From: Planctomycetota bacterium
GTDB lineage: Bacteria; Planctomycetota; Planctomycetia; Pirellulales; Lacipirellulaceae
DNA length: 13,519 bases
Assembly (NCBI GenBank): GCA_024278035.1
Contig: JAJRUA010000004.1
Coordinates: 1-13,519, forward strand
Direction: 5' to 3'
Shown: in pieces, positions 6,429 through 9,808 of the stretch
Numbering within the stretch: the first letter of the stretch is position 1
How the letters are laid out: each line of letters begins with the position of its first letter
Translations under genes and position numbers: made by a program
The notes under the pieces: generated by a model
Told to the model about the DNA's origin: nothing
What the model saw: the letters and a program-made list of their open reading frames with translations, nothing else
Databases searched by the model: none

Positions 6429-7643
6429 ATGAACCGACTCTTACCGCGTCTCGCCTTTCTCTCTCTTTTGCTCTTGGGAATGCCCCTTACGGCATTCGCA
6501 ACTGAACCCGTTTTGCTGGGCGTAGATGCCCTTGCACGAGATGGCTTTACGGTTCTAGCCTACCAGCGTGTTGGGCTCATCACCAACCATACGGGCGTCA
6601 ACGGCCAAAATCGCCCAACGATCGACGTACTGCACAACGCCGAAGAGCTATCGCTCGTTCGCCTTTTTGGCCCGGAGCATGGCATTCGGGGCGAGTTCGA
6701 TCAGGCAATGATTGAGGACGGCACCGACGGGCCGACGGGGCTGCCGATCACCAGCCTTTACGGTCCGCGACGCAAGCCAACGCCGGAGCAACTCGAAGGG
6801 ATCGACACGCTGGTTTTTGACATTCAGGACATTGGTTGCCGATTCTACACCTACATTTCGACCATGAAACTCGCGATGGAGGCGGCGTCCGAAGCAGGTA
6901 TTCGGTTTGTGGTTCTCGATCGGCCTAACCCGATTGATGGCGTGACGATCGAGGGGCCCCTGCTGGACGGAGAAGAGTCGTTTGTCGGTTGCCATTCGTT
7001 GCCGCTGCGCCATGGAATGACGATCGGCGAAATTGCCCGACTCTTTGCCAAAGAGGGCCCTGATGGCAAGCCACTCAACATCGACCTGACCGTCGTGCCG
7101 TGCGAAGGGTGGCGTCGAACTTCGTTGTGGGATGCGACGGGCCTGCTGTGGATCGATCCCTCTCCCAACATGCGAAGGCTAAACCAAGCGGTGCTTTACC
7201 CGGGCGTCGGCTTGCTAGAAGTAACTAACCTCTCGGTTGGCCGCGGCACCGACACGCCGTTTGAGTTAATCGGCGCACCATGGATCAACCCGTGGCAACT
7301 CGCCGCGGAGATGAACAGTCGTGGCCTGCCGGGCGTTTCGTTCGTGCCACGGTTCTTTACGCCCGAATCGAGCCAATTCGCCGGTGAGAAATGTGGCGGT
7401 ATCGATCTTGTCGTTACCGATCGGAAGAAAATAGAGCCCGTGCGGATTGGAATGCACCTGGCCCATGCCCTTCGACAGCTTTATCCCGAAGCATGGGAGA
7501 TCGATCGTTACCCACGGCTTTTAATCAACAAGCAGGTCCAGGCGGCGCTAGTAGCGGGTGAAAATCCGGAGCGATTGACGGAGTTGACCAAGGAAGGCTT
7601 GGATGCGTTTCGCGCGCGACGGGCGACGGTGCTTTTGTATTAA
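6429..7643 (+). CDS. namZ: NamZ-like exo-beta-N-acetylmuramidase (DUF1343, GH171)
   Basis: Homologous to the DUF1343 family whose founding member, Bacillus subtilis NamZ (YbbC), removes MurNAc residues from the non-reducing end of peptidoglycan fragments. The 404-aa product has a signal peptide (MNRLLPRLAFLSLLLLGMPLTAFA) and so is expected in the periplasm or outside. Conserved blocks: VGLITNHTGVN (about 48-58), LFGPEHGIRGEFD (79-91, with E83-H84 probable active-site residues), ITSLYGPRRKPT, FDIQDIGCRFYTYISTM (130-146), FVVLDRPNPI, LWIDPSPNMR, LYPGVGLLEVTNLSVGRGTDTPFE and the C-terminal FRARRATVLLY. Length fits the family. The ATG at 6429 gives the better signal peptide; a TTG at 6411 would extend it by six residues. 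A role in muropeptide recycling is inferred from the family; the adjacent exported DUF1570 protein may share an envelope role. Confidence 0.93.
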   Translation: MNRLLPRLAFLSLLLLGMPLTAFATEPVLLGVDALARDGFTVLAYQRVGLITNHTGVNGQNRPTIDVLHNAEELSLVRLFGPEHGIRGEFDQAMIEDGTDGPTGLPITSLYGPRRKPTPEQLEGIDTLVFDIQDIGCRFYTYISTMKLAMEAASEAGIRFVVLDRPNPIDGVTIEGPLLDGEESFVGCHSLPLRHGMTIGEIARLFAKEGPDGKPLNIDLTVVPCEGWRRTSLWDATGLLWIDPSPNMRRLNQAVLYPGVGLLEVTNLSVGRGTDTPFELIGAPWINPWQLAAEMNSRGLPGVSFVPRFFTPESSQFAGEKCGGIDLVVTDRKKIEPVRIGMHLAHALRQLYPEAWEIDRYPRLLINKQVQAALVAGENPERLTELTKEGLDAFRARRATVLLY

Positions 7644-7739: not shown

Positions 7740-8597
7740 CTATTCGCACAATTTCTTTCCAATCACTTGTGCGACTTCGTTGTGCAACGCCTCGGTTCCT
7801 GCAACCAAATAGTGCGCTTTCCATAAATCGAACGGGTCGGCATAGCTGCCGGTGACAATGCCGCCCGCCTCTTCGACTAACAACACCCCCGCGGCGGCAT
7901 CCCAGGGGAAAATCTGATGGGCCCAGTGCGAATCCAATCGGCCTGCCGCAACGTACGCCAAGTTGAGTGCTGCTGAGCCAGTGCGCCGAATCGCGCGCGA
8001 TCGGGTGACGACCGAAATGAAGTCTTCCAAGTCGGGCGAATCAGACGCCACGTTGGGAGGAAGACTTACGGCAACGAGTGCTTCGCTGAGTTGTTCGCAT
8101 TCACTAACGCGGATCGACTGATCGCCAAGGTAAGCGCCGTGTCCGCGGGCCGCATGAAACATTTCTTCGCGTAAGGGATCGAAGACGGCACCGGCCAACA
8201 CGGTGCCATCCACCACAGCGGCAACCGAAGTGGCGTAGCACGGAAAGCCATGTACGTAGTTCGTCGTGCCGTCCAGGGGATCAACGACCCAAGTGACCCG
8301 GCCATCACTCGGCGGTGGATTCACAACATCGCCTTCGCGAGGAGACTCTTCTCCTACGAATCGGTCAGCAGGGCGGGCCTCCAAAATGGCGGCCTCGATT
8401 GCCTGTTGGGCATGGATATCGGCGTCGGTCACAAGATCGGCGGGGCCCTTTTTGTGGGTCTCGAACCGGTCGAGCCAATCGACTAGCACCGCCCCACCAA
8501 TTCGAGCCGCCTGCTGCGCAACTTTACTTAGTTGGGCGACCGTCACCCCGCACGCCAGCTCAGGTTGCGACCGTTTTTCTTGTGGGGAGTTACACAT
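7740..8597 (-). CDS. Inositol monophosphatase family protein
   Basis: Magnesium-dependent sugar-phosphate phosphatase of the IMPase/SuhB fold, soluble, 285 aa. Diagnostic motifs in order: DLVTDAD (54-60), GEES with metal ligand E83 (82-85), WVVDPLDGTTNYVHGFP (103-119) with D106 and D109, and WDAAAG (232-237) with D233 or the adjacent aligned Asp as the last ligand; AGGIV follows as in the family. All metal-binding positions are present, so it should be active. Members hydrolyse inositol-1-phosphate, histidinol phosphate, fructose-1,6-bisphosphate or PAP, and the sequence does not settle which. It has no Shine-Dalgarno site; a perfect TATAAT lies 11 nt before the start codon, so the mRNA may be nearly leaderless. 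It stands alone, convergent with the NamZ-like gene. Confidence 0.93.
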   Translation of the reverse strand: MCNSPQEKRSQPELACGVTVAQLSKVAQQAARIGGAVLVDWLDRFETHKKGPADLVTDADIHAQQAIEAAILEARPADRFVGEESPREGDVVNPPPSDGRVTWVVDPLDGTTNYVHGFPCYATSVAAVVDGTVLAGAVFDPLREEMFHAARGHGAYLGDQSIRVSECEQLSEALVAVSLPPNVASDSPDLEDFISVVTRSRAIRRTGSAALNLAYVAAGRLDSHWAHQIFPWDAAAGVLLVEEAGGIVTGSYADPFDLWKAHYLVAGTEALHNEVAQVIGKKLCE

Positions 8598-8607
8598 AAC
8601 GTCATTG

Positions 8608-8613
8608 ATTATA
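8608..8613 (-). promoter_or_regulatory. Candidate -10 box of the inositol-phosphatase gene
   Basis: A perfect TATAAT on the minus strand (reading 8613 to 8608). A start about 7 nt downstream would be near 8601, leaving a leader of about 4 nt before the ATG at 8597. No clear -35 hexamer is visible 15-19 bp upstream. Confidence 0.45.
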
Positions 8614-8647
8614 GGAGGTTACGGCAACAAATAGATAGACGGGCCTT

Positions 8648-8663
8648 AACCAAAACCATAACC
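8648..8663. repeat. Short hexamer-spaced AACC repeat
   Basis: AACC occurs at 8648, 8654 and 8660 (period 6) upstream of the inositol-phosphatase start; on the coding strand this reads GGTT three times. It is too short to interpret beyond noting it as a possible protein-binding array. The surrounding stretch 8620-8770 shows no gene. Confidence 0.35.
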
Positions 8664-8775
8664 ACAGAAGGCTACCTAAACCGCCCGACCCTCCAAGGCA
8701 ATCGTTAGGCATGCGGATCCAGGAAATGTTTTTTTGTGAATCTCTAGAAAATTTGATTTAGTGGTCGCCAAACTA

Positions 8776-8803
8776 TGGACATCCCGTCAAACTCTGGTAG
8801 TAT
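8776..8803 (+). promoter_or_regulatory. Candidate promoter of the putative structured RNA
   Basis: TGGACA (8776-8781, five of six to TTGACA), a 16-bp spacer and TAGTAT (8798-8803). Transcription would start near 8810, which is where the 5' strand of the predicted closing helix begins. Confidence 0.5.
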
Positions 8804-8809
8804 GCGGTT

Positions 8810-8999
8810 GGATTGAGAAGTCCGCCCGCTTGAGTAGGATTTGTTTTCTCACGGTTTGTGAGAGGCGATTGCCTTATATTTATTATCCCTTGCCCTGGCA
8901 GCAGCTACCACATTTGGCGGCAGTCGGGGAATCCTGAAACGGCCTCTTCTCTGTTCCGGCCCCGTCGATTCACTCTTGAGTGGTCGGCGGGGTTTTTTT
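8810..8999 (+). ncRNA. Candidate structured small RNA of about 190 nt, class unknown
   Basis: The segment begins after a promoter-like site and ends in a strong intrinsic terminator. Between them its ends pair: GAGAAG (8815-8820) with CTTCTC (8946-8951), CCG (8822-8824) with CGG (8940-8942), and TAGGATT (8835-8841) with AATCCTG (8930-8936). Enclosed are a hairpin TCTCAC-ggttt-GTGAGA (8847-8863), an AU-rich linker (about 8874-8890) and a 15-position stem (8893-8907 with 8915-8929, 13 paired, loop CCACATT) that abuts the AATCCTG strand and could stack on it. No open frame fits this segment well. Length and end-to-end pairing are reminiscent of 6S RNA, but I recognise neither 6S, SRP RNA, tmRNA nor a known riboswitch. 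It could also be a regulatory leader of the gene at 9110. Pairings are by eye. Confidence 0.5.
8960..8999 (+). terminator. Strong intrinsic terminator
   Basis: CCCCGTCGA (8960-8968) pairs with TCGGCGGGG (8984-8992), one G-U pair included, and the stem continues inside through CAC/GTG (8971-8973 with 8980-8982); seven T follow (8993-8999). It ends whatever is transcribed from the 8598-8950 region and lies 110 nt upstream of the next gene. Confidence 0.85.
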
Positions 9000-9109
9000 A
9001 TGCGCCTTCTTACAAAAACCAAACCGACCCAAAAGAAGAGTGGCTCCTGTTAATACTGTCGCTCCCATCCAAATTCTTGGCGGCTTGGGTACAACAACGT
9101 CGGAACGAT

Positions 9110-9808
9110 ATGAAAAAAACTGCTATTTCGTCGTGGAATCTTTCCGGGGGCTTGGCCTCGTTTGAGAAGGACTCGCTCGAGTTTCAGGTCGATGCTGCTA
9201 CGCCGTCGGCAGGACTTGAGCACCTTGTTGTCCGAGGGAACCAACTCCCAGGATCGCTGTTGGCAATCAGCGTGGGACGGAAGGGGGACGCCCCGCTTCC
9301 GGCTGCGAATGAGGTTTATTCCCGGCGGGGCGATCTTATCTCGGTGCATGAAGCAAGCGAGGATTGGCCCGTACGTACTTTACTCAGTTGGTCCGCATTG
9401 CCACTGATTTCGGTAGAAGGTGTTTTGGTAGTGCTCACCCTTTCGTTGCAAACCGACCGCCCCGATGTTCGGCCGGTCATCGAATTGCGTTCGACACTCA
9501 GCAGCACCGCAAGTTTGACGAAGGATCATGCCACCTACGCGTGGCTCACTGCGGAAGAGCCCCCCGTAAAGGGAACCGCTTGCTTCATCGCCCCACATCC
9601 GTCCGATCTGTCCGAAGCAACTCTGATGGTCGAATCGGACGAGTGTCGCTTGCGTCTTGCCCCGATTTTTTTAGAGAAGGGTGTCATCCGCCGCTGCCGC
9701 GTGGCAGCTTGTTTCCTAATGAATGGCAAGGATGAAAAACCGAAGGACGAATCGGCATTGCCAGCGCTCACGGAGTTCGCAGACCAGCCACTACCACTGG
9801 CGACATAA
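9110..9808 (+). CDS. Hypothetical cytoplasmic protein
   Basis: A 232-aa product (MKKTAISSWNLSGG...) with no signal peptide and no membrane segment. The frame is open back to 8858, but that extension crosses the terminator hairpin and reads as non-coding, so the ATG at 9110 is chosen; no Shine-Dalgarno site precedes it. The middle has alternating hydrophobic patterns typical of beta strands (LLAISVGRKG, GVLVVLTLSLQT, ATYAWLTAEE) around the segment YSRRGDLISVHEASEDWPVRTLLSW (residues 70-94), which vaguely resembles planctomycete-restricted hypothetical proteins; I cannot name a family. The C-terminus is acidic and Pro-rich. It follows the putative small RNA and converges with the next gene, with 14 nt between stops. 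Function unknown; a beta-rich fold is inference. Confidence 0.75.
   Translation: MKKTAISSWNLSGGLASFEKDSLEFQVDAATPSAGLEHLVVRGNQLPGSLLAISVGRKGDAPLPAANEVYSRRGDLISVHEASEDWPVRTLLSWSALPLISVEGVLVVLTLSLQTDRPDVRPVIELRSTLSSTASLTKDHATYAWLTAEEPPVKGTACFIAPHPSDLSEATLMVESDECRLRLAPIFLEKGVIRRCRVAACFLMNGKDEKPKDESALPALTEFADQPLPLAT

Follow-up and report, generated by a model that had tools for sequence, protein, structure and literature searches.

The window, by which we mean the whole stretch of 13,519 nucleotides analysed here from a planctomycete of the family Lacipirellulaceae, carries a predicted small RNA gene between an inositol monophosphatase-family gene and the gene of a hypothetical protein. The features of the locus are as follows.

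7740-8597, minus strand: inositol monophosphatase-family gene, upstream and divergent (PF00459, E 1.6e-63), a synteny marker
8776-8803, plus strand: promoter TGGACA-16-TAGTAT, read from the sequence (TGGACA at 8776-8781, 16 nt, TAGTAT at 8798-8803), with the RNA start predicted at about 8810
8810-8999, plus strand: small RNA gene of about 190 nt, its start inferred from the promoter, with homologues in the order
8815-8820, plus strand: 5' strand GAGAAG of the outer closing helix P0, pairing with CTTCTC at 8946-8951 inside the core (from the fold)
8835-8841, plus strand: 5' strand TAGGATT of the closing helix P1, pairing with AATCCTG at 8930-8936 (swap test)
8847-8863, plus strand: hairpin P2, TCTCAC-GGTTT-GTGAGA, with arms at 8847-8852 and 8858-8863 (swap test)
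8863-8874, plus strand: hairpin P3, AGGC-GATT-GCCT, with 91.2% of cells paired in 37 sequences
8874-8889, plus strand: AU/C-rich stretch TTATATTTATTATCCC, conserved and left unpaired by the fold, with a similar stretch in window-like homologues
8891-8929, plus strand: extra hairpin, found only in the window among the aligned sequences (a gap in the other 31 alignment rows)
8942-8964, plus strand: invariant core GCCTCTTCTCTGTTCCGGCCCCG of 23 nt, a pairing region running into the terminator stem
8959-8999, plus strand: intrinsic terminator, with the stem at about 8959-8992 and seven T at 8993-8999 (fold and swap test)
9110-9808, plus strand: hypothetical protein gene, downstream, with a homologue at 82 of 112 RNA loci, a synteny marker

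No Pfam match was found for the protein encoded at 9110-9808. The promoter, closing helices, hairpin and terminator listed by the sequence-only reading of this DNA all lie in the sequence where it had placed them; the most telling feature, the invariant core at 8942-8964, had gone unremarked. Taken by itself, the window sequence is weak evidence for an RNA gene. A scan of the window alone gave 4 promoter-like sites for 4.1 expected, and the fold scored z -0.79 against shuffles without the terminator (41 of 200 shuffles were equally good) and z -3.13 with it. It is the comparison with relatives that settles the matter, and on that comparison the RNA gene is almost certainly real.

Relatives were first gathered through the neighbouring monophosphatase gene, which gave seven loci, in Botrimarina hoheduenensis, Bythopirellula, three other planctomycete MAGs and two MAGs from other phyla. 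A clear homologue of the RNA sits at the equivalent place in four of the seven (L001-L004), and the genome of L005 also has one, but at a different place. Botrimarina hoheduenensis (Pirellulales, Lacipirellulaceae), whose monophosphatase gene matches that of the window at 62% identity, is the nearest named relative found and carries both this RNA and the partner RNA described below. With 8855-8999 as query, BLAST returned homologues at E<=0.01 in 146 of 296 Pirellulales genomes, a count that becomes 142 once four weak matches are dropped (G186 and G211, where the match is the partner RNA in reverse; G213, which has no terminator; and G225, which was left unread). The core is identical in all 112 better-scoring loci, the window and L061 included; this set comes from 113 loci, less L121, a partner-RNA locus without the core, and leaves out the duplicates L024 and L036, the loci L005-L007 and the 6S loci L038-L044. 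As a guard against selection bias the weaker matches were read as well: one of the 33, L320, is the partner RNA, and among the 32 homologues that remain 27 keep the core unchanged, which brings the overall figure to 139 of 144. The five others comprise three with one base changed in the terminator part and two (G045 and G086) with four mismatches. When the 23-nt pattern, with at most two mismatches, was sought in 392 genomes from across the phylum, 10 had it; all ten are among the 12 shared with the order draw, and none of the remaining 380 has it, so that the family looks restricted to Pirellulales. A second copy of core and terminator was seen at L061 (G016:C21, near 991), in a genome that also has L060; it stands in a different gene context and shows no clear promoter.

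The predicted RNA has the attributes of a stand-alone small RNA, namely its own promoter, from which the start is predicted, its own intrinsic terminator and independence from the neighbouring genes. The best promoter site scores at least 10 in 106 of the 112 loci and in 7 of 112 when the sequence is reversed; the spacer is 16 nt in 106 of the 108 loci scoring at least 9, and the form conserved across the family is TGGACA-16-TAnnAT. To assess the helices we used an alignment-free swap test, in which the own partner of an arm is compared with the partner taken from another species, and the terminator arms gave z -10.9 (90 distinct sequences, 0 of 5000 permutations). As for the neighbours, with ORFs called mechanically around the RNA loci, the monophosphatase family adjoins the RNA at 82 of 112 loci, as does the hypothetical-gene family, and both do so at 63. 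The RNA is retained where the hypothetical gene has been lost and the next sizeable ORF is convergent (e.g., L010, L017, and L023); a leader of the downstream gene at 9110-9808 is ruled out because the RNA persists where that gene is missing. An identity as tRNA or tmRNA was likewise rejected.

The same swap test supports the inner helices, with z -9.5 for P1 (n=99, 0 of 5000 permutations; in the window the true partner comes third among 99) and z -9.4 for P2 (49 distinct sequences, 0 of 5000 permutations), against z -1.9 for a control segment (169 of 5000 permutations). The conservation of paired arms in relatives, which had been set beforehand as a test, is thus borne out for P1, P2 and the terminator, in each of which an arm fits its true partner better than a foreign one. 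The outer helix P0 is weaker than the other helices yet present, with only modest support in the window itself: a shuffle test gave Stouffer values, which ignore relatedness, of -4.96 for 51 window-like RNAs and -3.28 for 48 others, versus 0.31 and -0.30 for a reversed-core control, and the window alone gave z -1.29. When pairs of P2 and P3 were counted in fixed columns the covariation score was matched by 69 of 500 shuffles, the registers probably differing between sequences, and P3 shows no two-sided changes in 37 sequences and hence carries little covariation information. RNAalifold, run on 32 sequences aligned with MAFFT, retrieved no more than the terminator and a short hairpin of four pairs, since the length and register of the 5' part differ between sequences.

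The proposal of a discrete and structured small RNA, about 190 nt long and equipped with a promoter and a terminator of its own, finds support in the homologues, the 106 promoters among 112 loci and the swap tests, all of which are genomic comparisons. Its closed 5'-3' shape needs to be qualified: the arms are real in window-like RNAs, but the shape is absent from members of about 60 nt. At seven loci (L088, L095, L100, L115, L119, L120, and L122, the promoter match at L115 being weaker) the RNA is predicted to start 0-8 nt ahead of the core, and the short version predicted there would consist of a CU-rich 5' end, left with little or no pairing by the folds, and the terminator. The RNAs of the window and its relatives have a longer 5' part, which pairs back. 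Since the seven predicted transcripts barely exceed core and terminator, we take the core to be the working part; the closed shape, though real, elaborates on this core and is not what defines the family.

As judged from the genomes compared, the predicted RNA is an order-wide family of Pirellulales, so far unnamed and undescribed. The claim that it was undescribed agrees with Rfam 15, which gave nothing that reached gathering score, either in the window or in 12 related loci covering both RNA genes; at E up to 10 the region 8600-9130 returned weak matches only, to unrelated families. The literature searched yielded no report of such a small RNA in Planctomycetota, and a review gives no more than 8 distinct annotated sRNAs for the PVC group as a whole (PMC9029176). 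The resemblance to 6S RNA that had been suggested from size and shape does not hold, while the accompanying statement that no sequence match to 6S exists does, there being no RF00013 match at gathering score in the window and none at E<=10 in 8600-9130. The length of about 190 nt and the paired 5' and 3' ends of window-like members are indeed shared with 6S RNA, and one could imagine a divergent 6S or another housekeeping RNA acting by its closed shape on RNA polymerase. We hold this to be hardly probable at all: among 57 genomes RF00013 has matches at E<=1 in six (two over the cut-off), five of these six also carry our RNA with the 6S match at another place, and the short members do without the closed shape. 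The 6S model matches lie at G012:C95, G044:C11, G005:C6, G055:C274, G028:C18, and G022:C136; 6S RNA has been reported absent in two members of the group, but may be present in divergent form.

A likeness is also found with 6C RNA, RsaE and LhrC, which are small RNAs of terminator type whose C/U-rich pairing stretches target Shine-Dalgarno sequences. Like them, the RNA of the window has an exposed C/U-rich stretch beside an intrinsic terminator that is complementary to purine-rich ribosome sites; unlike them, it has 23 nearly invariant nucleotides, no Rfam match above gathering score and no mRNA target found. As to candidate RNAs, the 'y' in the second column of the Weinberg 2010 table for the Rhodopirellula-1 motif reportedly means cis-regulatory. 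The table entry describes this motif as a candidate RNA of Proteobacteria and Planctomycetes without Rfam number (Weinberg 2010, PMC2864571); set against that entry alone, our RNA shares with the motif its occurrence in Planctomycetes, and the two may be identical.

The complement of the core led to a second RNA. In 26 genomes a core-complement search gave the 26 matches in the small RNA itself and 18 others, compared with 8 for a backward control. In eight of these genomes a recurrent intergenic locus with two tandem sites behind a sigma54-type box is among the others, and a ninth genome, G015 (L172), has two sites with no sigma54 box seen. A tandem-site pattern that uses no promoter information found 23 of 296 genomes and none of 296 in the backward control. 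The box TGGCAC-N5-TTGC, with at most one mismatch, stands on the same strand within 160 nt upstream in 21 of the 23; the two remaining genomes have no such box and look like chance matches, and the opposite orientation of sites to box occurs in 0 of 21. Read by eye, a terminator follows 3' of the sites in nearly all partner layouts, and in carriers such as Botrimarina and Bythopirellula the partner RNA would be about 230-300 nt long. One candidate, L174 (G009:C1:3090100-3094100), was rejected as an unrelated array of imperfect repeats containing AAGCTGGCCT...CCGCCTGG.

A profile of the partner built from sequence alone, R1, matches in 153 of the 296 genomes, many of these matches being the core of the small RNA in reverse; R1 was trained on sequences chosen for their complementarity, with a shorter partner alignment. 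Among the matches listed to E of about 4e-4, full-length copies (model start at most 8, end at least 100) are present in at least 100 genomes, including G001 (Botrimarina) and G003 (Bythopirellula), and among 149 phylum-draw genomes R1 found G001, G018 and, in part, G377. Joint occurrence over the 296 genomes, uncorrected for phylogeny and assembly completeness, amounts to 92 genomes with both RNAs, 8 with the partner only, 50 with the small RNA only and 146 with neither; G029 is counted as small RNA only, its R1 match spanning 16-132, although the tandem pattern finds a partner there. In G020 the small RNA lies on contig C1 near 14,507-14,567 (minus strand), and the partner on the same contig near 3,930,668 (plus strand). 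A diverged small RNA was sought in the partner-only genomes and none was found, a look-alike in G186 having neither promoter nor terminator. G045 and G086, whose small RNAs have a core altered outside the terminator, are without an R1 match, as are 50 genomes with the small RNA anyway.

The two sites of the partner differ in kind. Over 54 loci the first matches the core complement along most of its length, at 0.48-0.98 per position, its six middle bases included (0.69-0.98); in the second, the flanks GGGGCCGG and GAAGAGGC match (0.75-0.98) and the six bases between them do not (0.11-0.57). At least two sites with 14 or more matches out of 22 occur in 41 of 50 distinct partner loci. The duplex with the core has a mean energy of -43.5 kcal/mol in 54 loci (-43.4 over the 50 distinct ones), against -26.7 for shuffles, with a mean z of -5.5, although for 3 of the 54 a different segment of the locus gave a slightly better score than the RNA did; the different tests used sets of 55, 54 and 54 partner loci, with 4 duplicates.

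Some features of the partner's surroundings deserve mention on their own account. In many loci (e.g., L165, L168, L183, and L249) a palindrome TTGCAAAATTGAACA...TGTTGCAATTTT was seen by eye after the partner terminator, and it is perhaps an operator or a separate control site of the DUF1549 gene downstream. Of 51 distinct loci, 11 have upstream of the partner a divergent gene from a single family of ECF-type sigma factors (L165-L169, L192, L193, L195-L197, and L200), with a Pfam assignment made on the L264 member.

Both genes, their promoters and terminators, their conservation, their complementarity and their co-occurrence are there to be read in the genomes. From these we infer transcription, pairing in the cell, the direction of control and the existence of mRNA targets, with different degrees of confidence. 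That the small RNA pairs with the sigma54 RNA appears very probable, and the two RNAs probably control each other. The small RNA, made from a housekeeping-type promoter, would act in trans, its functional part being the invariant 3' core, in which a CU-rich pairing stretch GCCUCUUCUCUGUUCC runs straight into the terminator hairpin; in the clade of the window the 5' extension would fold back over the core and mask it. Its main identified partner would be the RNA made from the sigma54-type promoter, usually with two sites complementary to the core. The partner offers GAAGAGG-type sites in tandem, with a promoter and a terminator of its own, which leads us to read it as a sigma54-controlled decoy: when sigma54 is active, the partner RNA would work as a sponge that pairs with the small RNA and would thereby relieve mRNAs whose Shine-Dalgarno-like GAAGAGG the small RNA would otherwise block. 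The mechanism as a whole, with the sigma54 RNA as decoy, seems to us somewhat more probable than not to be correct.

Other readings of the same sites have to be weighed against the decoy. The sigma54 transcript could be the regulated 5' leader of a DUF1549/DUF1553-DUF1501 operon whose stability or read-through the small RNA alters, and the genes downstream speak for this: of 51 distinct partner loci, 37 are followed on the same strand by a DUF1549-type gene, and in the longer loci Pfam confirmed DUF1549/DUF1553 in all four proteins tested (L263, L265, L266, and L267) and DUF1501 in all four tested (L263, L264, L265, and L266). The terminator, however, ends the site-bearing RNA about 150-400 nt before most gene starts; in the layouts read it lies downstream of the sites and separate from them, with no overlap of sites with terminator or ribosome site seen by eye, and the palindrome beyond it could be the separate control site of the gene. 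A leader of this kind is a serious alternative that we nevertheless consider rather unlikely.

It is also conceivable that the conserved element acts without any RNA pairing. Protein binding could preserve the core while the sites on the sigma54 RNA serve some other function; an invariant stretch of 23 nt is longer than most pairing seeds need, and an RNA-binding protein other than Hfq, which was not found in 12 carrier genomes, may exist. Such a reading leaves the tandem complementary sites, their fixed orientation and the co-occurrence of the two RNAs unexplained, and we regard it as improbable. Still less probable is that a transcription factor binds the shared element as DNA, with a single copy in one gene and two copies in the other, as the two conserved half-sites set a fixed six bases apart in the second site might suggest. 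The six middle bases of the first site match the core complement too, and in seven loci the predicted transcript is barely more than the element. Two things make a DNA operator unlikely: the element has a fixed orientation with respect to both transcripts (the same to the sigma54 promoter in 21 of 21 and opposite to that in the small RNA gene, as pairing requires), and it merges with the terminator stem of the small RNA.

Coming back to the decoy, the mRNAs that it would relieve were looked for among single complementary sites at gene starts, where no conserved target was found; shared gene-start sites occur only in two genomes with near-identical sequence there, and the candidates named by eye, L175 (aldo-keto-reductase-like) and L176/L177 (HAD-hydrolase-like), were set aside as chance or close relatives. 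Hfq (PF17209, E<=0.01) was found in 0 of 12 carrier genomes, while the controls were positive in 5 of 14; since all 12 carriers lack a match, pairing would need to work without Hfq or with another helper.

Pairs of small RNA and sponge are known in bacteria, among them GcvB-SroC, ChiX and the chbBC mRNA, and the Qrr sRNAs with their sponges. The pair CjNC110-CjNC140 of Campylobacter jejuni is reported as another (PMC10470494). With all of these our candidate has in common that a small RNA meets an RNA with complementary, potentially titrating sites, and both multiple sites for one small RNA and joint occurrence with it were found. It differs in that two separately promoted RNA genes are kept across an order, that the decoy usually has two sites, one largely complementary and one complementary at its flanks, that its promoter is of the sigma54 type, and that no Hfq was detected in 12 carriers. 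The candidate sponge pair would belong to a familiar kind of system, in a form that is new and unusually conserved.

The persistence of 23 nearly unchanged nucleotides throughout the order points to a strongly constrained and perhaps central function. With a partner placed behind a sigma54-type promoter, the function of the small RNA becomes directly accessible to tests, and so does RNA pairing in bacteria where no Hfq has been found. It is tempting to go further and to imagine, quite tentatively and with more doubt than confidence, an order-wide switch of two RNAs in which a constitutive, ultraconserved small RNA of antisense type is checked by a sigma54-controlled decoy. The sites of this decoy would be of two kinds, the largely fully paired ones, which could trigger cleavage, and the centrally unpaired ones, which could do no more than hold; within part of the order the small RNA would have acquired an internal copy of the decoy site, with which it masks the core, and phage contigs with the core-terminator module would suggest that phages tap the switch. 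Phages do seem to carry such a module: in three uncultured viral contigs from IMG/VR the exact 23-nt core is followed by a terminator-like hairpin, with the core at 2974-2996 on the minus strand in L285, at 7013-7035 on the minus strand in L286 and at 1871-1893 on the plus strand in L287. L285 and L286 have the same region in common; genes for an integrase and an excisionase-like protein lie nearby in L286, and L287 encodes a terminase large subunit.
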